From Psychrobacillus lasiicapitis (GTDB taxonomy: Bacteria; Bacillota; Bacilli; Bacillales_A; Planococcaceae): a stretch of DNA of 64,000 bases. Shown here piece after piece: positions 42,919 to 53,395 of this stretch; position 1 is the stretch's first letter; each line of letters begins with the position of its first letter. The stretch spans positions 124,001 through 188,000 of the forward strand of contig NZ_VDGH01000003.1 of NCBI RefSeq assembly GCF_006861795.1, in the 5' to 3' direction. The position numbers and the translations under genes were made by a program. The notes under the pieces were generated by a model. The model saw nothing but the letters and a program-made list of their open reading frames with translations, searched no databases and was not told where the DNA came from.

Positions 42919-43581
42919 TCAATTTATTTCTTCAAAATACTTTCCAAAATGTAATTTCGCTTCCTCGATTCGGTTTTTCGCTATTCCAAGTAGTACAGTA
43001 GTCGCTGGCCCTGCTGATTTCACTATATCCCAACCTTGCAATTCACAACGCAAACCAAGTCGCTTGCATTCTTCTGCTATTCCAGTGGAACCGACTGGCC
43101 ATACGCTTTCTACCAGACCACTCTTGATGCTTTCCCAAATCTTTTTCAGGTCTGCAATTTTGTCCGACTCTGTCATAACCTCTTGACCTACACATGGCTT
43201 GCCGTACACATACCAAGTATATTTTTCAGCACTGTCCGTTTTCTGTTTGCCAATCAGCGTGACAGCGATGGCGGATTGCAACGTTTCCATATTTGACTCT
43301 GTGCTGCCGGTAATCTCCGGACAAGGCTGGGCTATCTCCCCAAAGAGTTTCTTAATACCCTCTACATATTTATCCCAGTTTTTATTGCCAGAAAAGTTAT
43401 GCAGTACGATCGAAATCGGATGTGCTCCTGCCGCCCATTGCTCCATCAGTGCGACTCGCGTTGCAAAATAAGCTACTACTTCGTCAGAAACATGCACTAA
43501 ATCGGCTTCTTTTTCACCGATTCCTGCAGAATTATCGGTCGTCAAAACAAATCCATTTGGCAATAAAACCGCATTACGCAT
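42919..43581 (-). CDS. cblS: Alpha-ribazole kinase CblS
   Basis: 220-residue protein with the look of the PurM/ThiL (AIR synthase) fold: LTTDNSAGIGEKEADLV near the N-terminus and ITGSTESNMET in the middle. CblS phosphorylates alpha-ribazole to alpha-ribazole phosphate and, with CblT, replaces CobT in Geobacillus and Listeria. The start overlaps cblT by 8 bases, which strongly supports the pair. It is the last gene of the riboswitch operon. I considered CbiZ, but that domain is fused to BtuD here. The name is from family memory and context. Confidence 0.8.
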   Translation of the reverse strand: MRNAVLLPNGFVLTTDNSAGIGEKEADLVHVSDEVVAYFATRVALMEQWAAGAHPISIVLHNFSGNKNWDKYVEGIKKLFGEIAQPCPEITGSTESNMETLQSAIAVTLIGKQKTDSAEKYTWYVYGKPCVGQEVMTESDKIADLKKIWESIKSGLVESVWPVGSTGIAEECKRLGLRCELQGWDIVKSAGPATTVLLGIAKNRIEEAKLHFGKYFEEIN

Positions 43582-44056
43582 GTGTTCTCACTCTTTCCAT
43601 TACTCGCTCTACGACCGGAGACACAACTATTGCGATTCCAGCGTTTAGTACAGTCGCAATTGTTATTCCAGGCAATGCCATCACAAAAAATGCCGGGGAA
43701 ATGATCCAGTAAAACGGTAGCGTCGCAAGCACACTGTTTGCGACGATAAAAAATATCCATTTCCATACATTTCGTCCTGCTTGATGAAGCTTTGTAAATA
43801 CGAATAAAATCAAAAACATTTCAACAGCTATTATTAAATGTAGTGGCCCCAGAGGAAATCCTGCGTATAAAGAAGATGATAAATGTCCGATTAAAGATGC
43901 TGCTCCTGCATAAACAGGAGGCAAAAATGCAGCCGATATAAGCGCTGGCACTGTGTCGAGTGCCGCGCTATTAATCCCTATTGGAATTTTAATAAATGCT
44001 CCTATTGCGGATAGTGCTGCAAACATTGCTGCAAGTGTAAGTAAACGAAGCTTCAC
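43574..44056 (-). CDS. cblT: Alpha-ribazole transporter CblT (ECF S-component type)
   Basis: 160 residues with about five membrane helices, opening RLLTLAAMFAALSAIGAFIKIP as in ECF substrate-binding (S) components. In Geobacillus and Listeria the neighbouring pair CblT-CblS imports and phosphorylates alpha-ribazole. The gene lies 5 bases behind pduO and overlaps cblS. It would need an ECF energising module encoded elsewhere, or act alone. Confidence 0.82.
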   Translation of the reverse strand: MKLRLLTLAAMFAALSAIGAFIKIPIGINSAALDTVPALISAAFLPPVYAGAASLIGHLSSSLYAGFPLGPLHLIIAVEMFLILFVFTKLHQAGRNVWKWIFFIVANSVLATLPFYWIISPAFFVMALPGITIATVLNAGIAIVVSPVVERVMERVRTHA

Positions 44057-44061
44057 CTTAT

Positions 44062-44652
44062 TTACTCCCCTTCTTTTTTAACGCTTCCTACGTTCTTGAA
44101 TACTTTTGCACTTCGAATATATTCTACATCCGAAACTTTCATTCGCGCATTAGCTACTCGAGCTGCTGCAAATAAATAGTCAGATAGTCGATTTAAATAG
44201 CGTTGCACAACTGTTGGTACATCTTCTTCTGCTTTTGTCAAAGTGACTACTTGTCGTTCCGCACGTCTCGTAACAGTGCGTGCAATATGAAGCGTTGCCG
44301 CTGCTGGTGTTCCGCCTGGTAATATAAAACGCTCTAACTCCGGGCTTTCATCCACAAGTACATCAATTCGTTTTTCCATTGCTTCGATTGGTTCGTCTGT
44401 CATTTTATATACGCGACGATTCGATACATTTGCAAGATCTCCGCCACAATCGAATAGCTCATGCTGAATAGTTTCTAGATCTTCTAGAATATCCGCAAAT
44501 ACAGCGGGATCTAGTTCTGTCACCGCTTTTCCGATAAATGAATTTAGCTCATCGATTGTTCCGTATGCTTCTACACGAATATTATCCTTATCGGTTCTTC
44601 CTCCGATTAAGCCTGTTTTCCCTTTGTCGCCAGTTTTTGTATAAATTTTCAT
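44062..44652 (-). CDS. pduO: PduO-type ATP:cob(I)alamin adenosyltransferase
   Basis: Adds the adenosyl group to cob(I)alamin/cobinamide. The 196-residue protein begins MKIYTKTGDKGKTGLIGG, with YGTIDELNSFIG, FILPGGTPAAATLHIARTVTRRAER and LNRLSDYLFAAAR, all PduO signatures. The ATG at 44652 overlaps the upstream stop in an ATGA junction. The longer frame to 44694 is not supported. Confidence 0.95.
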   Translation of the reverse strand: MKIYTKTGDKGKTGLIGGRTDKDNIRVEAYGTIDELNSFIGKAVTELDPAVFADILEDLETIQHELFDCGGDLANVSNRRVYKMTDEPIEAMEKRIDVLVDESPELERFILPGGTPAAATLHIARTVTRRAERQVVTLTKAEEDVPTVVQRYLNRLSDYLFAAARVANARMKVSDVEYIRSAKVFKNVGSVKKEGE

Positions 44653-45038
44653 CTCCACACATCTCCCTTTATTGTTTGTGCAATTCCATACCAAATACGT
44701 GTAACACTTTCCGCCTTTGTAAAAAGTTTTTGATAAAATCGACCGACGTCATCTCTTAATCTACGGGCAGTTGCTTCCATCGGTACAATTCCTCGACCAA
44801 TTTCAGTTGCGATTACAATAACCTCGACTTTCGTATTCCATCGATCCAAGTGTTCGAGCCAATCTTCCAACTTTGTTTGTTCCAAATTTTCTACCCCATA
44901 AACAACGACTACTTCTGTATTTGACAATAATACTGGAATATCCTCCTCTGCATTCATCCATTGCACGCTTCTTCCTTGAATCCGGTTCTCTACGTACGCT
45001 CGTTTTCCATTAAATGCTCCACCGAAAATGACATGCAT
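44649..45038 (-). CDS. Short CobU-like protein
   Basis: 129 residues, clearly shorter than CobU (about 180). It has a degenerate P-loop GGAFNGKRAYV and a C-terminal part, EIGRGIVPMEATARRLRD followed by VGRFYQKL, that matches the NEVGxGIVP...RxxRDxxGRxNQ region of CobU. The central His-containing segment that is guanylylated in CobU is not evident. It may be a subfunctional kinase or accessory protein beside the full CobU at 47139. It overlaps cobC by 49 bases and pduO by 4. Confidence 0.8.
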   Translation of the reverse strand: MHVIFGGAFNGKRAYVENRIQGRSVQWMNAEEDIPVLLSNTEVVVVYGVENLEQTKLEDWLEHLDRWNTKVEVIVIATEIGRGIVPMEATARRLRDDVGRFYQKLFTKAESVTRIWYGIAQTIKGDVWR

Positions 45039-45589
45039 CGCTTTCCCTCCAGTACGTCTTTTTTACGTGTCCATTGCAACTCGTAGCTACACCCATGTGG
45101 TACTTCCCATTCCCAAAAGCTTTTTTTAACTGGTGCAAATTTCATCAACAAAAAGCGAATGGGACCACCATGTGTAATAATAATGGGATGGTTTACTTCT
45201 TCCACTACTCCATAGAAAGCTTGCAATACTCGGTCTTCCATTTGTTCTAACGACTCTCCATTTGGAGGAGCAACTTCCCTCGGATTATCCAGCCAATTTC
45301 TATATAAAGTATCTTCTTTTAATTCATTATATGTTTTTTGCTCCCAATCACCAAAGGAGCATTCCCTGAAATTTGCATTTTCCGTATAAGAAATTCCCCT
45401 AAATACTTTCGCTGCAGTTTGTTTACATCGCATTAAATCGCTGCCAATCACTTGTTTGGTTGTACTAGATAGTTTTTTCGTTAGGATATCATCGATAATC
45501 GGTTCATCGGTCCAACCGATGTATTTTTTATCGCGATTCCCTTGCGTTGGCAAATGCCTTAAGAGAGTAATAGTAAAAGTGTCAGCCAT
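44990..45589 (-). CDS. cobC: Histidine phosphatase, probable alpha-ribazole phosphatase CobC
   Basis: 199-residue phosphoglycerate-mutase-like phosphatase: LLRHLPTQGN (catalytic RH), SDLMRCKQTA, FRECSFGDWE, and IITHGGPIRFLL with the second catalytic histidine. In this operon it would remove phosphate from alpha-ribazole phosphate or adenosylcobalamin phosphate. GGAGGTGG precedes the ATG. It overlaps cobS by 31 bases and the short CobU-like gene by 49. Confidence 0.88.
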   Translation of the reverse strand: MADTFTITLLRHLPTQGNRDKKYIGWTDEPIIDDILTKKLSSTTKQVIGSDLMRCKQTAAKVFRGISYTENANFRECSFGDWEQKTYNELKEDTLYRNWLDNPREVAPPNGESLEQMEDRVLQAFYGVVEEVNHPIIITHGGPIRFLLMKFAPVKKSFWEWEVPHGCSYELQWTRKKDVLEGKRCMSFSVEHLMENERT

Positions 45590-46308
45590 AATACCACCTC
45601 CGAAACTTCTACACTCGCTCCAAGCAAATCACCGGTAACCCCACCGAAGTTCCTAAGAGCCCAATTGCGAAATAAACAAATAAAACCAATCAACACGACT
45701 GCAATTGTGACCGCCACAAGCCAATCCGTCAGCAATCCTAAAACAGCAAGACCCAGTAAAAAGTGACATACAGCTGCAAACCACACAGCCCTCTCATTCA
45801 TTTTTTGCTTGAAAAAATGAGCGAGTCCACTCGTTTTCGCATTATTTGTGAGAGAGAATAATGTGATAAGTATCACCCTAGAAAAATAAGGGATTAGTAT
45901 GAGTAAAATCCAATGAAAAGACGTTGCCGCAAGTACTTCCGAAACAATAATTACTTTGCCAACGACCAGCAATACAACGGCCATTACACCAAATGCTCCG
46001 ACTCGCGGATCATCTAATATTTCGAATCGCTTCATACGGTCTCTATAAGAAAAAAATGCATCCGATGTATCGATAAACCCGTCCATATGAAGGCCGCCAG
46101 AAAAGAAAATGCCAAGCAGTACAATGCTAAATCCTGTCATTAATGGACTCCATTGGGCGTAGAGCACGATACAGGCAATTGCCCCGATCCCAGCTCCTAT
46201 CCAAGGAAAAACACTATACATCCCCGTAATCTGACGTCTTTCCATCGGTAAATTTTTGTTCACTGGTATAATAGTGAAAAATTGAAGTGCTAATAACAAG
46301 CTATTCAC
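45559..46308 (-). CDS. cobS: Adenosylcobinamide-GDP ribazoletransferase CobS
   Basis: Joins adenosylcobinamide-GDP to alpha-ribazole (phosphate), the last assembly step, in the membrane. The 249 residues contain several hydrophobic helices and the family motif GGLHMDGFIDTSDAFFS followed by DDPRVGAFG. The start is GTG at 46308, overlapping the cobQ-like stop (GTGA) behind ACGGGGTGC. Confidence 0.94.
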   Translation of the reverse strand: MNSLLLALQFFTIIPVNKNLPMERRQITGMYSVFPWIGAGIGAIACIVLYAQWSPLMTGFSIVLLGIFFSGGLHMDGFIDTSDAFFSYRDRMKRFEILDDPRVGAFGVMAVVLLVVGKVIIVSEVLAATSFHWILLILIPYFSRVILITLFSLTNNAKTSGLAHFFKQKMNERAVWFAAVCHFLLGLAVLGLLTDWLVAVTIAVVLIGFICLFRNWALRNFGGVTGDLLGASVEVSEVVLWLTLLLLLS

Positions 46309-47129
46309 TTTTGCACCCCGTTTAACACGGAGATGATTTTTTCCCATTTTACATGCTTTTTAAAATGGTTTGCCCACTCGTCTATTTGTTCTTCAGATGC
46401 ATTCCCGCCATTTTTCGCTTCGCCGTCTTCTTCCTCTAGTTCATTAGGAAAATAAGGAACGATTCCGATCACATCGATTCCCGTAAATGACTCGATAAAG
46501 TCTATTCCATCTTGGAATAAAGAAGTATCCCCTCGGAACTTATTGATAATGATTCCTTTTACCCGAGCTCTTTGCGCTTCTGGTAACAGTGCAAGCGTGC
46601 CGACGATAGATGCAAATACCCCTCCATACTCAATATTTGCTACCAATAAAACCGGGACATCTGCCAAATCAGCAATCCGCATATTTACTAATTCTCGATC
46701 TCTTAAATTCACTTCCACAGGGCTACCGGCCCCTTCTAAAATTAAATATTCATAAGATGTGGAAAGCTTCTTCAAGCTATTTTTTATCAATAGTTGACCT
46801 TCTTCAAAAAACTGCTCCCGGTAATGCATTCCATTCATTTTATTCAGCTTTTCCCCTAAAATAATGATGTTCGATTCCATATTTCCCGCGGGTTTGAGCA
46901 GGATTGGGTTCATTTCTGCTCTATAAGGGGTTTTTGCGGCTCTTGCTTGTAAGGATTGCGAAACACTTATTTCCAAGCCTTCCTCTGTTCGGATACTTAA
47001 CGATGACATATTTTGTGATTTAAATGGAGCCACTTGCTTTCCTTCATTTGCTAGGAGCCTGCAAATCGCTGTACATACTAAGCTTTTCCCTACGCTAGAA
47101 GCGGTCCCTTGCACCATTAAGCCTTTCAT
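46305..47129 (-). CDS. CobQ-like protein lacking the glutamine amidotransferase domain
   Basis: 274 residues against about 500 for adenosylcobyric acid synthase. The N-terminal ATP-binding half is well kept: MVQGTASSVGKS, PFKSQNMS, LEGAGSPVEVNLRDRELVNM and INKFRGD, IGIVPYFPNELEEEDGE. The class I amidotransferase domain with its cysteine is missing; instead a short charged linker leads into QIDEWANHFKKHVKWEKI, which resembles the normal CobQ C-terminal helix. The frame is clean, with tight junctions on both sides, so this is not an assembly-type break. ATG at 47129 follows GAGGG. Glutamine-dependent amidation of cobyrinic acid is not expected. Confidence 0.85.
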   Translation of the reverse strand: MKGLMVQGTASSVGKSLVCTAICRLLANEGKQVAPFKSQNMSSLSIRTEEGLEISVSQSLQARAAKTPYRAEMNPILLKPAGNMESNIIILGEKLNKMNGMHYREQFFEEGQLLIKNSLKKLSTSYEYLILEGAGSPVEVNLRDRELVNMRIADLADVPVLLVANIEYGGVFASIVGTLALLPEAQRARVKGIIINKFRGDTSLFQDGIDFIESFTGIDVIGIVPYFPNELEEEDGEAKNGGNASEEQIDEWANHFKKHVKWEKIISVLNGVQK

Positions 47130-47138
47130 CTGCATCCC

Positions 47139-47669
47139 TCATTTCCACTGACGATCTTCACCATATTCCATTTCGAAGGCATGATCTGCTTTTGCTACAA
47201 GCTTTTGATGGAGTCGACCAATCCACTCTTGATAGAGAGCTGTATATTCATATTTTGATACTGGTTCATCCAGCACTTCATTTGAAACAATGACCAATAC
47301 TTGCACTTTTTCTAATAGCTTTTCAATTGTCGTGAATAACTGCTTTTCTACTTCTTCCATTTGACCTTCGTAAAGCTCATTTGCAAGCCAAGTCGTAACA
47401 CAATCCCAAAGAATGGCATCCCCTTTTTCAATTTTAGGGATAATTTGCTCCAAATGTCTTGGCTGCTCGATTGTCACCCATTCAACCGAATAATTTCGAC
47501 GATCGTCTTGGTGTCTGTTAATACGTGCTTTCATTTCCTCGTCGACTGCAATACCAGAAGCAACGTACACATTTCGTTTTGCTTGCTCGTTCATGACAAA
47601 GTGTTCAGCGAAGCTGCTTTTTCCACTCCGCACGCCCCCTGTTATGAAGATAAGTTTTCCTCGAACCAT
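47139..47669 (-). CDS. cobU: Adenosylcobinamide kinase / guanylyltransferase CobU
   Basis: Phosphorylates and guanylylates adenosylcobinamide. The 176 residues have the P-loop FITGGVRSGKSSFAE, YVASGIAVDEEMKARINRH with the likely guanylylated histidine, and WDCVTTWLANELYE. The start at 47669 is behind AAGGGAGATG; the longer frame to 47732 is not supported. It overlaps cobD by 28 bases. Confidence 0.92.
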   Translation of the reverse strand: MVRGKLIFITGGVRSGKSSFAEHFVMNEQAKRNVYVASGIAVDEEMKARINRHQDDRRNYSVEWVTIEQPRHLEQIIPKIEKGDAILWDCVTTWLANELYEGQMEEVEKQLFTTIEKLLEKVQVLVIVSNEVLDEPVSKYEYTALYQEWIGRLHQKLVAKADHAFEMEYGEDRQWK

Positions 47670-48718
47670 GTGGTCATCTCCCTTTGCAAATGCTCCATTT
47701 GCGCCTTTTCCTTCATGCCAACACGGAACCATTTTCCATCCAAGCCTTTAAAGTTTTCTGTATGGCGAAGGACACAACCTTTTGCCAATAAATAATCGAA
47801 AAACGCTTTCGAACGTGCATGATCAGGCAGTTGGAAACAAAGGAAATTAGTTGTGGATGGCAATACAATGCAATGCCATTTCTCTAGGAAGTCCGAAAAG
47901 CCCTCCCGCATTTCTTTTGCAAAAGTAATCGCCTGTATTCGGTACTCCTCTTCCTGCAAACAGTCAGCTCCGATCGTTGTAGCAATTGCATTACTATTCC
48001 AATGCGACAATCGGGAACGAATATCCTTTATAAAGGCTTCGCTTCCTACTGCATATCCAAGGCGCAACCCCGGAATCGCATACATTTTCGTCATCGAGCG
48101 CACGACAACCACGTTCGGAAAATCCTTCAAATACGGGATAAATGATTCTTTTTCATCAATAAAGTCGAGAAACGCTTCGTCTAAAATCACTTCACATTTA
48201 TATCTTTTTGCGTAGCGTACAATTTGGATAATTTCCTCTAAAGGTATTAGATAGCCGGTTGGATTGTTTGGTCTGCAAATATAGATGGCCTCTGCAAACT
48301 CGATTTCATCGAACACTTCCTCTAAAGGAAGCTGTCCTATTGCAATTATTTCTTTTATGTATACATGATAAGGGGCAAGGGTCGCCGCGTATTCTGAAAA
48401 AGTTGGATGAATCAAGACGACACGCTTGTTTTCATATCGTTTCGCAATGCTTGCAAATAGCTCTGCTGCTCCATTTCCAACGATGATGTTACTAACGGAT
48501 ACGTCGTGATACTTAGCAGCTGCAGATAAAAAAGGCTCTCCAGCAGGATCTGGGTACTTTGTGATTAATTCAGCATAGGTCGACCATCTTTCCATTACAA
48601 ATGCTGGTGGACCTAAAGGATTTACATTTTCACTAAAATCCATTATCTTCTCTGGCATCTCGATTCCTAGCCGTTCATATACGTGATGTGCATTTGCTCC
48701 ATGATTAGGTAATGCCAT
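47642..48718 (-). CDS. cobD: Threonine-phosphate decarboxylase CobD
   Basis: PLP enzyme of the class I/II aminotransferase fold that makes aminopropanol phosphate, the linker between corrin ring and lower ligand. The 358 residues show DFSENVNPLGPP, ICRPNNPTG, DEAFLDF and the PLP-lysine motif RSMTKMYAIPGLRLGY. A histidinol-phosphate aminotransferase would look similar; the position between cbiB and cobU decides. Start at 48718 behind GGAGG. Confidence 0.92.
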   Translation of the reverse strand: MALPNHGANAHHVYERLGIEMPEKIMDFSENVNPLGPPAFVMERWSTYAELITKYPDPAGEPFLSAAAKYHDVSVSNIIVGNGAAELFASIAKRYENKRVVLIHPTFSEYAATLAPYHVYIKEIIAIGQLPLEEVFDEIEFAEAIYICRPNNPTGYLIPLEEIIQIVRYAKRYKCEVILDEAFLDFIDEKESFIPYLKDFPNVVVVRSMTKMYAIPGLRLGYAVGSEAFIKDIRSRLSHWNSNAIATTIGADCLQEEEYRIQAITFAKEMREGFSDFLEKWHCIVLPSTTNFLCFQLPDHARSKAFFDYLLAKGCVLRHTENFKGLDGKWFRVGMKEKAQMEHLQREMTTWFEENLSS

Positions 48719-49664
48719 ATAAAATTCCTCCAATAACCATCATCCAAAGCCAAAATAGAAATACCGCTGTATTCAAATGCGAGATGGTACTTAATATATG
48801 GTTTGGTGATAAAGGAACCTCTACAACTCCCATGCGGGCACGATTCGAAATGATTCCTTTATATGTATTAATTCCTCCCAGTTGAATGCCTAGCTGGTAA
48901 GCAGTCGCTGCTTCTAAATAACCACTATTTGGGCTTGGATGTTTTTTCGCATCAAGCCACCACCCCTTCATGCGCTTGTTAAAAGGTAGCTTACTTTCTT
49001 TTTTACCCCACAGCATAATAAGATAGCCTGTCAAACGACTTGGTATATAGTTTGCTATATCATCAAGCTTAGCCGCAGCGTATCCGAACTCTTCGTATTG
49101 CTCATTTTTATAACCGACCATCGAATCGAGTGTATTGATCGCTTTATAAACCCAAAGCCCAGGTGCACCTGCAAACAAAAACGCATAAAAAAGCGGAGCA
49201 GTAATTCCATCACTAATATTCTCGGAAACTGTTTCCACGACACCTCGTGTAATTTCTTGTTCATCTAACGTTTCCGTATCTCTTCCGACTATCCACGATA
49301 GCTTTTGCCTAGCAGCAGGTAAATCATTTGCAACTAGTGGTTTGTATACATCCAACGCTGCTTCTCTTAGGCTTTTTTGCGCAAGTCCCGAAGCTATTAA
49401 CATACTTTCCACTATAATCCCAACCCACATATGGATGGAATACGCACTTATTAAAAGCGCAATCGTTACAGAAAATGTAATTCCTACAACGATAAAAACG
49501 AGGAGAAATCCTTTTGCTTTCTTCGCTCTCCCTTTATTCAACCATGTGGTTAGCTTTGAAATAAGCGTCCCAATAAAGCGAACGGGATGCGGCCAATTCG
49601 GCGGGTCACCAATTATTCGATCGAGCATGAGCCCTATTGCAATTGCGATTATATGTGGACCCAT
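48705..49664 (-). CDS. cbiB: Adenosylcobinamide-phosphate synthase CbiB
   Basis: Amidates adenosylcobyric acid with aminopropanol (phosphate). The 319-residue membrane protein has DRIIGDPPNWPHPVRFIG near the N-terminus and ETVSENISDGITAPLFYAF and NTLDSMVGYKNEQYEEFG, all family hallmarks. It overlaps cobD by 14 bases and follows the btuD-cbiZ fusion by 2. It takes the product of CbiZ. Confidence 0.94.
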   Translation of the reverse strand: MGPHIIAIAIGLMLDRIIGDPPNWPHPVRFIGTLISKLTTWLNKGRAKKAKGFLLVFIVVGITFSVTIALLISAYSIHMWVGIIVESMLIASGLAQKSLREAALDVYKPLVANDLPAARQKLSWIVGRDTETLDEQEITRGVVETVSENISDGITAPLFYAFLFAGAPGLWVYKAINTLDSMVGYKNEQYEEFGYAAAKLDDIANYIPSRLTGYLIMLWGKKESKLPFNKRMKGWWLDAKKHPSPNSGYLEAATAYQLGIQLGGINTYKGIISNRARMGVVEVPLSPNHILSTISHLNTAVFLFWLWMMVIGGILYGIT

Positions 49665-49666
49665 TT

Positions 49667-51136
49667 CTATTCCCAGCCTTTAGCTTTTTTGTAAGTTTGG
49701 ATTGCCTCGACTGTGCATTCATACACACCAAGTCCGATTTTCTTTCCTACTTCCGTAATTGGACCTGCATATGGAATATATGCTCCTTGTTGTGTTGCTG
49801 CAACGAGCACGCTATCTGTTGATGTTCCAGTCGCAATCGTGCCAGTACGAGGATCCTTAACTTGTTCGTACGCTAGTGCTTTTGTTTTCGCTTCGGTTGC
49901 AGTAATGACCGCTTGTATAAAAGCTTCCTCTGCTAATTCCCCGTTTATAATGATCCATGTGTTAATGGTACCGATTGCAGGTAATGCTTCTACTTCATAA
50001 GCTTTTGCTACATCTACTGCATTTCCAACTCCTGCGGTCACCATAATAATGACGGAGCCAAAATCTCCATCGTATTGTTTAATAACCGCATCTTTCGTAT
50101 AAACAGCAGTCATCATTCCTACTGTTTCTGTTTCAGAATATCCGCGATTGGTTAGGAATTGTTGCATTTCTGTTTGGGCGTTATCAATATTATAAAAAGC
50201 GTCTACTCTTCTATTCACAAATGTTCGGTACCAGCCCGTCCCAGCGTTTATAACTGCGGATGACCAAGTTTTTAATTGATGTTCCGCTTGGAATACGACT
50301 AACTCATCGGTCACTTGAAAGTTTTCAATCGTAATGAGTTTCTCCTCACATCGCTCTTTTATATCTGGCAGTATCGTGATTTGAGGTTTTGGCCGCTCGG
50401 GATGCGGATTTGTGCTAATTCTAGCTTTATACACTGTTTCGATTTTTTCTTTCATAACGACTTCATGCGGTTCACCGATGACTTTTACTTCGCCTTGATC
50501 CATTAATAAGAGCCGGTCACAGTAAAGAGATGCAAGATTGATATCATGAAATATACTGATGATAGTCATCGCGTTTTCATTTGCTTGCGTTTTGATCGTA
50601 TCTAGCAATTGTTTTTGGTGTGCAATATCCAAATGATTTGTTGGTTCATCGAGTAACAGGATTGGCGCTTGTTGTGCGAGTGCTTGTGCCACAAATACAC
50701 GCTGTTGCTCCCCACCGGATAATAGATCTAACATATGATGCTCATATTTTTCTATCCCCATTTGCTTCATCGCCCCTACAACAGCCGCTTCATCTTCGTC
50801 CGACCACGAGGAAAACAACCCACTTTGGTGAGGATAACGCCCGAGTGCAATTGTATCTCTTACGGTATGGGAAAAGGCATGACTATGTAATTGTGGGAGA
50901 ACTGCCATTTTTTTCGCTAGCTCTTTCGACGAATACGTCGTTAACAATTTCCCATCAATAAGCACATCTCCGGACTCCTTATGTAGGATGCCACTAATCA
51001 CTTTTAACAAGGTGGATTTGCCACTCCCATTAGGTCCTAAAATTCCTAGCATTTCTCCTTTTTCAACTTGAAAGGTGACATTTTTGACGATCAATTGGCG
51101 ATCATATCCACCCGAGAGCTTTTCCACTTTTAACAT
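49667..51136 (-). CDS. btuD: Fusion: cobalamin ABC ATPase (BtuD) and CbiZ amidohydrolase
   Basis: 489 residues. Residues 1-250 are an ABC ATPase of the iron/B12 type: Walker A GPNGSGKST, signature LSGGEQQRV, Walker B ILLLDEPTNHLD and the H-loop IFHDIN. From about 285 to the end is CbiZ, which hydrolyses adenosylcobinamide to adenosylcobyric acid for remodelling: INAGTGWYRTFVNRRVD, MMTAVYTKD, VTAGVGNAVD and TGTSTDSVLVAAT. ATG at 51136 with AGGAGG upstream; the frame extends to 51238 without a ribosome site. It joins import to remodelling in one polypeptide. Confidence 0.93.
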   Translation of the reverse strand: MLKVEKLSGGYDRQLIVKNVTFQVEKGEMLGILGPNGSGKSTLLKVISGILHKESGDVLIDGKLLTTYSSKELAKKMAVLPQLHSHAFSHTVRDTIALGRYPHQSGLFSSWSDEDEAAVVGAMKQMGIEKYEHHMLDLLSGGEQQRVFVAQALAQQAPILLLDEPTNHLDIAHQKQLLDTIKTQANENAMTIISIFHDINLASLYCDRLLLMDQGEVKVIGEPHEVVMKEKIETVYKARISTNPHPERPKPQITILPDIKERCEEKLITIENFQVTDELVVFQAEHQLKTWSSAVINAGTGWYRTFVNRRVDAFYNIDNAQTEMQQFLTNRGYSETETVGMMTAVYTKDAVIKQYDGDFGSVIIMVTAGVGNAVDVAKAYEVEALPAIGTINTWIIINGELAEEAFIQAVITATEAKTKALAYEQVKDPRTGTIATGTSTDSVLVAATQQGAYIPYAGPITEVGKKIGLGVYECTVEAIQTYKKAKGWE

Positions 51137-51137
51137 A

Positions 51138-52133
51138 TTAAATGCCTCCTTTTTTTCGTTGTCTAAAGAAAATAAATGCAAAAACAGGAGCTCCGATAAA
51201 TGCCGTAATGACACCGATCGGCAATTCGGTTGGTGCAATAATCGTACGAGATACTAAATCACAGATGATTAATAATGCCGCTCCGTTTATAAAGCTAAGT
51301 GGCAACACATGCCGATTGTCCGAGCCAAATAGTAGTCTTGTCATATGGGGAACGACAAGCCCGACAAACCCAATTGTTCCAGATACTGCAACTGCTGTGC
51401 CGGTAAGCATGGACCCACCGATCAAAATCATCATTTTTCTCTTTTTCACATTTACCCCTAAATGCTGTGCTCGCTCTTCCCCAAATAGCATCGCATTTAG
51501 CTCTCTTCTGTTTAACCATAATAACAGCGTACCAATGAGCACAAAAGGGATAGCCATTTGCACAAAACTCCAGCCGCGCATCGATACACTACCGAGAAGC
51601 CAGCTAATAATTTGGCGTAGCTCTTCCCCAGTGAGTGCAATCATTAGTGAAATAACGGAGCCTAAAAAAGAGCTGAAAATAATACCAGTTAAAATAATCG
51701 TTTCCATTTTCATCGCACGATCTACTAGTTTTGCAAAAGAAATAACAAGAAACATCGTTACTAATGCACCGATCATACTGAAAACCGGCAACGTGAATAT
51801 TCCTAAAAATGGTACCGAAATACCGAAAAAGAGCGTAGTCACGGCACCTACCGAGGCACCGGACGACACTCCTAACGTATAAGGATCGGCAAGCGGATTT
51901 TTTAACAATCCTTGAAACGCAGCGCCTGCAATAGCTAGTGATGCACCAACTAGCCCTGCAAGCACAACACGCGGCATGCGAATTTTCCAAACAATATTCG
52001 ATGCGATTGCATCTGCTCCCGTATCCCATAAAGTGCTGATCGGTACCTTTACGGATCCGACCGATACACCAAGCCAAATTGCAACAAGTAGCGCTGCAAT
52101 CGACAAGATGTAGCCGATCATGGCTTTACTCAC
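51138..52133 (-). CDS. btuC: Cobalamin ABC transporter permease BtuC
   Basis: 331-residue FecCD-type permease with about ten membrane helices; LAGLVGASLAIAGAAFQGLLKNPLADPYTLG (in part) and GTIGFVGLVVPHMTRLLFG are diagnostic. The start is GTG at 52133, overlapping the btuF stop by 8 bases, with AGAGGC upstream. It works with BtuF and the BtuD-CbiZ fusion. Confidence 0.93.
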   Translation of the reverse strand: MSKAMIGYILSIAALLVAIWLGVSVGSVKVPISTLWDTGADAIASNIVWKIRMPRVVLAGLVGASLAIAGAAFQGLLKNPLADPYTLGVSSGASVGAVTTLFFGISVPFLGIFTLPVFSMIGALVTMFLVISFAKLVDRAMKMETIILTGIIFSSFLGSVISLMIALTGEELRQIISWLLGSVSMRGWSFVQMAIPFVLIGTLLLWLNRRELNAMLFGEERAQHLGVNVKKRKMMILIGGSMLTGTAVAVSGTIGFVGLVVPHMTRLLFGSDNRHVLPLSFINGAALLIICDLVSRTIIAPTELPIGVITAFIGAPVFAFIFFRQRKKGGI

Positions 52134-53103
52134 TAAATGCCTCTGGGTAAATTGCTTTCGCGATTTCTTCTAAGCCATCTGCAAGACGTGGACCTGTACG
52201 ACTTGTTAAGTTTTCATCCACTTGTACTACAGCATCATTTTGAACCGCAGTAACCGTATCGAAACCATCACGTGCTTTGACGCTATCTACAATTCCATCT
52301 ACATAGCTATACATAATAATAATTACGTCTGGGTTACGACTAACTATCTCTTCTGGCGACATTATAAACCAGCCTTCTTGATCTGCTGCGATATTTTCTG
52401 CATTCACCATGTCTAAAACTTCTTGGATGAATGTTCCTTTACCAGCTGTATAAATATCAGGAACATCCGAGTTTTCTACAAACACTGTTTTCTTTGTTTC
52501 TACTTTTGCTACTTTTTCTTTTACTTCTTCTACTTTTGCTTTCATATCTTCTACAATTGTTTGTGCTTCTTCTAATTTACCTGTAGCACGACCAATTTGT
52601 TCGATTGTTGTATATGTTTCATTGAAATCTGCTGCATTTTTCACAACGAATACTTTCACACCAGCATCGCGAATTTGTTGTAATCCTGCTTCACCCACGC
52701 CTAAACCTGATTCATGCGCAAAGACGATATCTGGATTCATCGATACGATTTTCTCTACGTTGAATTCCTGTCCGCCGATTTTCTCTTTTTCTAACGCTTC
52801 TTCTGGATAGTTATCGTAGTCATTGACTCCAACGATTTCCTCATTTAATCCAAGTGCAAATAAAATTTCCGTATTACTTGGAATCATGGAAACGATTGTT
52901 TTTGGAGCTTCTTCTAACGTTATTTCATTGCCAACCGCATCCGTCATTGTTATCGGAAATGCTGCTTCATCTACCTCTGTTGGTTGTTCTTGTTGTTGTA
53001 CATTGTCGTTATTTTCGACTGGTGTTTCTTCTTTTTGGCCACATCCTACTAAAAGCAATACTGCTAAAGCGGATGTCATCCATAATTGCCATAATTTCTT
53101 CAT
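52126..53103 (-). CDS. btuF: Cobalamin-binding lipoprotein BtuF
   Basis: 325-residue substrate-binding protein with lipoprotein signal (MKKLWQLWM... LVGCGQ) and a linker rich in E, Q and N, followed by the periplasmic-binding TroA fold (KTIVSMIPSNTEILFALGL, GVNDYDNYPEE, NPDIVFAHESG). ATG at 53103 is behind GGGGGAAAG, and the longer frame would run into the riboswitch. First gene of the operon. Confidence 0.92.
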   Translation of the reverse strand: MKKLWQLWMTSALAVLLLVGCGQKEETPVENNDNVQQQEQPTEVDEAAFPITMTDAVGNEITLEEAPKTIVSMIPSNTEILFALGLNEEIVGVNDYDNYPEEALEKEKIGGQEFNVEKIVSMNPDIVFAHESGLGVGEAGLQQIRDAGVKVFVVKNAADFNETYTTIEQIGRATGKLEEAQTIVEDMKAKVEEVKEKVAKVETKKTVFVENSDVPDIYTAGKGTFIQEVLDMVNAENIAADQEGWFIMSPEEIVSRNPDVIIIMYSYVDGIVDSVKARDGFDTVTAVQNDAVVQVDENLTSRTGPRLADGLEEIAKAIYPEAFSE

Positions 53104-53133
53104 GTTACTTTCCCCCATTTTCTTCTGTGCAAA

Positions 53134-53161
53134 TAAAAAACTCTCGTCCAATGAACGAGAG
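53134..53161 (-). terminator. Riboswitch terminator
   Basis: CTCTCGT / ACGAGAG with a 7-base loop, followed by TTTTTT on the minus strand, between the cobalamin aptamer and btuF. It is the likely expression platform; cobalamin binding should favour it and shut off the operon. Confidence 0.85.
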
Positions 53162-53164
53162 ATA

Positions 53165-53365
53165 GAATAGGTATAAATCTGCAAGGTTTTCCAAATGCCA
53201 AGCCGACTCACACGTTACCTATCCTCGTAGGCATTAAAGTGTTTACACATAAAGGCAGGTTTTCTGACTCATGATAGCGGACTATCACACACAGTGGCGG
53301 GACCGTGCTGGACTTTAACCAGCTTCCCTTTTAACTTACTAGTTTCATAGCAAGCACCTTTATGT
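53165..53365 (-). promoter_or_regulatory. Cobalamin riboswitch
   Basis: Minus-strand leader with the class I cobalamin aptamer landmarks in order: AAAGGTGC (P2 region), AAAAGGGAAGC, AGTCCAGCACGGTCCCGCC ACTGT, and the B12 box GAGTCAGAAAACCTGCC. It heads the 13-gene salvage operon. Confidence 0.95.
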
Positions 53366-53395
53366 TCAAAGTATAATTTTGTATGCATCGACTTC

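Follow-up and report, generated by a model that had tools for sequence, protein, structure and literature searches.

A CobQ without its glutaminase domain in cobalamin salvage operons of Psychrobacillus and related bacteria: a probable ammonia-dependent cobyric acid synthase

Between cobU and cobS of its cobalamin salvage operon, Psychrobacillus lasiicapitis encodes the ATP-binding half of cobyric acid synthase (CobQ) together with its last helix and without the class I glutaminase domain, which is confirmed for the frame in the window, i.e. the whole stretch of 64,000 nucleotides analysed here. We regard this short CobQ as probably a single-domain, ammonia-dependent cobyric acid synthase.

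The short CobQ frame and its operon

The frame comprises 276 codons, and an alternative start at the second ATG (47129) would give 274 residues beginning with MKGLMV, as in many relatives. Residues 5-240 match positions 2-237 of the 480 in the NCBIfam profile for cobyric acid synthase (NF001989) with 331.5 bits at a cut-off of 273; TIGR00313, matched over profile positions 1-234 of 477, stays below its cut-off (301 bits vs 309.9). The Pfam domains found are AAA_26 and CbiA. GATase_3 was absent from this protein and from four short relatives in the Pfam search, and in the alignment with full-length CobQ the whole class I GATase domain is missing. CbiA/CobB (cobyrinate a,c-diamide synthase) belongs to the same two-domain superfamily, but its family model matches weakly (39 bits, far below the cut-off of 261.4) and the motifs of the short protein are of CobQ type. 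Likewise, the nearest solved folds to the structural model are dethiobiotin synthetases (BioD) of 220-230 aa, stand-alone synthetases without a GATase, but short CobQ carries CobQ motifs and reaches only 34.9 bits with the BioD family model (cut-off 83.3). A phmmer search of the PDB with this protein found no match.

At its end, the window protein can be aligned to the C-terminal helix of full-length CobQ; the best alignment is with full-length CobQs found in this operon slot in other genera (WAxHVKxHLDW type). In the AlphaFold2 model (mean pLDDT 88.1, pTM 0.90), helices 248-261 and 264-272 resemble helices 460-471 and 474-482 that end the model of a full-length CobQ (mean pLDDT 82.7, pTM 0.72). 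The original prediction of a GATase-less CobQ that keeps its last helix is thus borne out by profile matches, tail alignment and the modelled hairpin, which agree. A frameshift origin was ruled out by cobS following directly downstream and by the recurrence of similar lengths in 92 genomes.

The B12 genes form a run on the minus strand with a cobalamin riboswitch at its head, in the order btuF, btuC, btuD-cbiZ, cbiB, cobD, cobU, cobQ, cobS, cobC, a gene like the C-terminal part of cobU, pduO, an ECF S component and a 220-aa gene; we assume that the whole run is one transcript. Its features are the following:

53237..53376, minus strand: cobalamin riboswitch upstream of btuF (77.5 bits, gathering threshold 31.5)
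52126..53211, minus strand: BtuF-type binding protein (Peripla_BP_2 domain; name BtuF from context)
51138..52133, minus strand: BtuC-type permease (FecCD domain; name BtuC from context)
49667..51238, minus strand: BtuD-CbiZ fusion of 523 codons (ABC_tran and CbiZ domains)
48705..49664, minus strand: CbiB (Pfam and NCBIfam)
47642..48733, minus strand: CobD, threonine-phosphate decarboxylase type (best model 273 bits, below its cut-off of 290.55)
47139..47732, minus strand: CobU (Pfam above cut-off, NCBIfam below its cut-off)
46305..47135, minus strand: short CobQ (NF001989 match, Pfam domains, tail alignment)
46998..47000, minus strand: Leu46 of short CobQ, at an alignment position that is Asn in full-length CobQ
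46626..46637, minus strand: residues 167-170 of short CobQ, N-I-E-Y (D-I-[DE]-[RK] in 40 full-length rows)
46395..46424, minus strand: linker at the site of the missing GATase, residues 238-247 (low confidence, pLDDT below 50 at 238-240)
46320..46394, minus strand: C-terminal helical hairpin, residues 248-272 (alignment to the end of full-length CobQ; AlphaFold2)
45559..46347, minus strand: CobS, longest frame, start approximate (Pfam and NCBIfam)
44990..45589, minus strand: CobC-type phosphatase (Pfam; best NCBIfam model below its cut-off)
44649..45038, minus strand: C-terminal part of CobU only, 129 aa (39.3 bits in Pfam)
44062..44694, minus strand: PduO-type corrinoid adenosyltransferase (Pfam and NCBIfam)
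43574..44056, minus strand: ECF transporter S component (Pfam PF12822), by position presumably CblT
42919..43581, minus strand: 220-aa protein, which from its position we take to be CblS (alpha-ribazole kinase)

Junctions around cobQ are tight, the cobU frame ending at 47139 and the longest cobS frame overlapping the cobQ stop. The 220-aa protein had no Pfam or NCBIfam match at 0.001. The CobU C-terminal-like protein stands beside an intact CobU, and a homologue occupies the same place in most of the family salvage operons examined. The window genome contains no full CobQ, no CbiC and no CbiA-grade match; the view of it as salvage-only holds, and the corrinoid substrate of its short CobQ must therefore be imported.

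Distribution, origin and selection

The family set consisted of 261 genomes (an order-level search gave the same 261), of which 206 have a CobQ match and 55 have none. Among 123 family CobQ genes that were read, 31 are full-length and 92 are short, one per genome; short family copies number at least 92, with about 50 CobQ matches not itemized, most of which have a GATase_3 match in a frame of about 500-600 aa. The short form is intact in 92 genomes of four genera (63 Sporosarcina, 16 Psychrobacillus, 7 Bhargavaea and 6 of a fourth genus), with a length of 267-279 aa after trimming of starts. It was found in 16 of the 19 Psychrobacillus genomes; G141, one of these 16, additionally encodes a full CobQ, located in a de novo cluster. 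In each of the 16 Psychrobacillus genomes with a CobQ match, the copy in the slot is the short one, so the short form is not a deletion confined to one isolate.

An assembly or gene-calling artefact is a practically negligible explanation. Such cases exist: the G061 copy looked short only because of a contig end, and the frame of G224 is broken in an assembly of low quality (83% complete, 9% contaminated); both were rejected as short CobQs and kept outside the counts. In the window, however, cobQ is followed by cobS, and one-contig assemblies (e.g. G132, G136, G139, G182, G230) have the same structure. Four genomes flagged as having stops inside (G125, G129, G132, G133) all showed an intact CobQ frame when read. 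In one Bhargavaea genome (G004, locus L046) the salvage genes look duplicated and fragmented, probably an assembly problem.

The gene is tied to a fixed place. All 92 short copies have cobU before and cobS after them, as do all 19 full-length salvage-type copies of two further genera, vs none of the 12 full-length copies of de novo type. The slot can also be empty. Of 19 genomes in which CobQ is absent or confined to a de novo cluster, a CobS locus was obtained from 14 (five gave none), and at all 14 loci cobU and cobS were neighbours with no CobQ match between them. Thus, the salvage operon carries this gene as an optional component; in other genera its place is taken by a full-length CobQ or left empty, and salvage as such does not need it. 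Five genomes of one genus (G098, G107, G119, G120, G121; genus g13) have a full CobQ with a de novo-grade GATase_3 score and no CbiC match listed.

The GATase domain has apparently been lost more than once in Bacillus-group bacteria. Within the family, the short form is a single change on the tree. Short CobQs in the same slot also occur in Oceanobacillus, Neobacillus, Cytobacillus, Mesobacillus and Bacillus renqingensis, and these five copies are nested among full-length salvage CobQs of Bacillaceae; further ones were found in two MAGs (L229, L207), and a class sample of 398 genomes contains at least two (G271, G292). Relatives outside the family were the best 80 of 593 (67 of the 80 loci parsed, plus L207 read separately). 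In a tree of 71 rows, four changes are needed, i.e. in the family clade with G271, in the five Bacillaceae, in the two MAGs, and in G292 among Paenibacillaceae, with some weak forks and changes that could in principle include regain. The G271 copy (L279) joins the family clade with weak support (60/4) and was not counted as a loss of its own. A single common loss of all short CobQs was rejected when the 31 short rows were forced together (p-AU 2.2e-7), as was a group of 22 family copies and the five Bacillaceae copies (p-AU 0.0053); the groups for these AU tests were chosen after seeing a tree, and L229, L207 and L279 are long branches.

Short CobQ is under purifying selection. In 14 pairs of short copies dN/dS ranged from 0.043 to 0.207, compared to 0.096-0.141 in three full-length pairs, and in the tail codons (32-42 per pair) pN was below pS in 14 of 14 short pairs. 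A decaying remnant kept by chance is highly improbable: the function seems optional, with more than a fifth of the family having no CobQ match, but several findings speak against decay: all 92 frames are intact, dN/dS lies far below 1 in several genera, the tail codons are constrained too, and the short form has more than one origin. The suggestion that the frame is selected rather than decaying is upheld by the same frames and ratios.

Conserved residues, nitrogen donor and substrate

In 31 full-length rows, 109 columns are invariant or almost so; at 59 of these, at least 98% of the 92 short copies have kept the residue. In the wider set, all 31 short rows contain the P-loop T, S and K, FK-QN, EG-GS..E.N and N-F-G, and all 31 end in a helix-like, alignable tail. 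The predicted ATP and substrate core is thus unchanged, and the window protein keeps the P-loop, FK-QN, EGAGS and N-F-G, with N46, D167 and R170 replaced. At position 46, all 40 full-length rows have Asn and 30 of 31 short rows have another residue, the sole exception being L280 of G292; Asn46 would be a candidate for a residue that couples the synthetase to the GATase. Positions 48 and 57 (window numbering) are, like 46, altered in nearly all family short copies, and the three changes could reflect a new substrate instead of lost GATase coupling. The motif D-I-[DE]-R reads N-I-E-[YF] in all 16 Psychrobacillus short copies and D-I-S-K in 13 Sporosarcina ones, so these enzymes may act on another substrate or have reduced function; for Psychrobacillus, a substrate shift may have taken place.

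Full CobQ can use ammonia in vitro, and glutamine amidotransferases are classic examples of domain fusion and ammonia channelling. In short CobQ, the kept P-loop domain would phosphorylate carboxylates on the side chains of a corrinoid of cobyrinate type. The acyl phosphate would then be attacked by free ammonia, and not by ammonia that reaches it through a channel from a fused glutaminase, to give the amide. The amidation reaction, ammonia as its donor and the substrate in Psychrobacillus are inferred. Alternatively, short CobQ might still depend on glutamine, with ammonia delivered by a separate GATase (GatD-like, CbiA or a housekeeping class I enzyme), which we consider quite unlikely. Domain searches found no GATase gene within the window operon, and the adjacent amidotransferase gene that would have spoken against the original prediction is therefore missing there. 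The window genome does have three GATase_3 matches just above the family cut-off (28.6-36.7 bits), but from their starts, read by eye, we take these frames to be PdxT, PurQ and HisH, not GatD. Moreover, 15 carriers of short CobQ had no GATase_3 match at E <= 0.001 in a glutaminase search that covered the GATase_3 class only, so a partner of CobQ or GatD type is not general. The 55 family genomes without CobQ (35 identified by elimination) had no GATase_3 match better than 1e-11. In favour of a glutaminase in trans, GatD is described as a solved stand-alone relative of the CobQ GATase, and the C-terminal helix retained in short CobQ matches an extra helix common to CobB, CobQ and GatD in that account (PMC5871853).

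The expectation that the short form occurs only in salvage-only genomes did not hold. CbiC is present in 82 of the 261 family genomes, and eight Sporosarcina genomes (G176, G190, G203, G206, G216, G217, G218, G219) combine short CobQ with a CbiA above the NCBIfam cut-off, while CobQ and GATase_3 searches found no full CobQ in them. Three of the eight (G219, G190, G216) have ring-synthesis genes. In G219, the cluster from cbiC to cobA consists of open frames 85-97% identical to those of G180, and the de novo cobQ is a remnant of six codons, a stop and short scraps (L089:6046-6147); this loss could mark the onset of decay of the de novo pathway. G190 and G216 keep CbiC, CbiD, CbiE/T, CbiL, CbiF, CbiG, CbiH, CbiJ and uroporphyrinogen methyltransferase without a full CobQ (CbiC, CbiH, CbiJ and the CbiD of G190 called by family models, the others by homology to scored G180 genes), with btu genes, cbiA and cobA at a second place. 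The other five have a btuFCD-cbiA-cobA island without CbiC, and in G292, which lies outside the family, one island combines btu genes with short CobQ, CobA and CbiA, and CbiC is likewise absent. Islands of the btu-cbiA-cobA kind were seen at loci L091, L093-L098 and L280. Those without CbiC suggest a candidate gene set for cobyrinic acid salvage. In a published survey, cbiA/cobB was reported for 46% of precursor salvagers vs 2.6% of non-producers (PMC6461909). With ring genes or CbiA plus CobA in these eight Sporosarcina genomes, the usual CobQ reaction looks needed there. All eight keep D-I-[DE]-R-G-G, which proves nothing, as 54 of the 84 other carriers have it too.

The protein might also have taken up a new reaction, with carboxylate activation kept and another acceptor or substrate, e.g. 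in helping CbiB or modifying another corrinoid side chain. We rate this as rather unlikely, although the changes at positions 46, 48 and 57 and the loss of D167 and R170 in Psychrobacillus would fit it, and the coexistence of short CobQ with a full CobQ of a de novo cluster in five genomes (G141, G192, G193, G196, G228) argues for a separate job of the short form there. On the other hand, no CobQ candidate other than the short form was found beside CbiA in eight genomes, and cobU and cobS stay when the slot is empty, which makes core salvage independent of the slot CobQ.

For the ammonia-dependent synthase that we prefer, two settings can be envisaged. In most carriers, including the window genome, short CobQ would complete imported under-amidated corrinoids, beside CbiZ and CbiB, while in the eight Sporosarcina genomes no other candidate was found that could take the CobQ step following CbiA and CobA. 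The proposed link to CbiZ does not discriminate: with CbiZ in 256 of 261 family genomes, the co-occurrence says little. Of the three roles first offered (amidation with free ammonia, completion of a salvaged corrinoid, another ligase-type role), free-ammonia amidation appears the best. More tentatively, and as a nearly balanced matter, at least four GATase losses in Bacillota, with the last helix kept and the Asn nearly always replaced, may have yielded an ammonia-fed CobQ that salvages cobyrinic acid or under-amidated corrinoids and even replaces full CobQ in de novo synthesis.

Known systems and meaning

No description of a GATase-less CobQ was found in titles and abstracts of the open-access literature. 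Its closest known relative is the two-domain CobQ/CbiP, with which it shares the P-loop synthetase domain, motifs, the salvage-type slot and the C-terminal helix, but short CobQ is without GATase_3, has lost the equivalent of Asn46 and, in Psychrobacillus, also lacks D167 and R170. Single-domain NAD synthetases, described as using ammonia (PMC3376133), are likewise synthetases without a fused glutaminase, but they belong to another synthetase family with another substrate, and their single-domain form is thought to be ancestral, in contrast to the one here, which is derived by loss. In MurT/GatD, as described in PMC5871853 and PMC6085368, a CobQ-like GATase is separate from its synthetase; there the GATase subunit exists, whereas none was found for short CobQ.

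Labels such as 'cobyric acid synthase' and searches based on the GATase can misread genomes of this kind. The recurrent loss in one family provides ready-made sets of full copies, short copies, empty slots and a genome with a lost full copy, with which one can ask what purpose the glutaminase serves and through which residues it is coupled. Finally, the short CobQs point to a salvage route that starts from cobyrinic acid, earlier than cobinamide.
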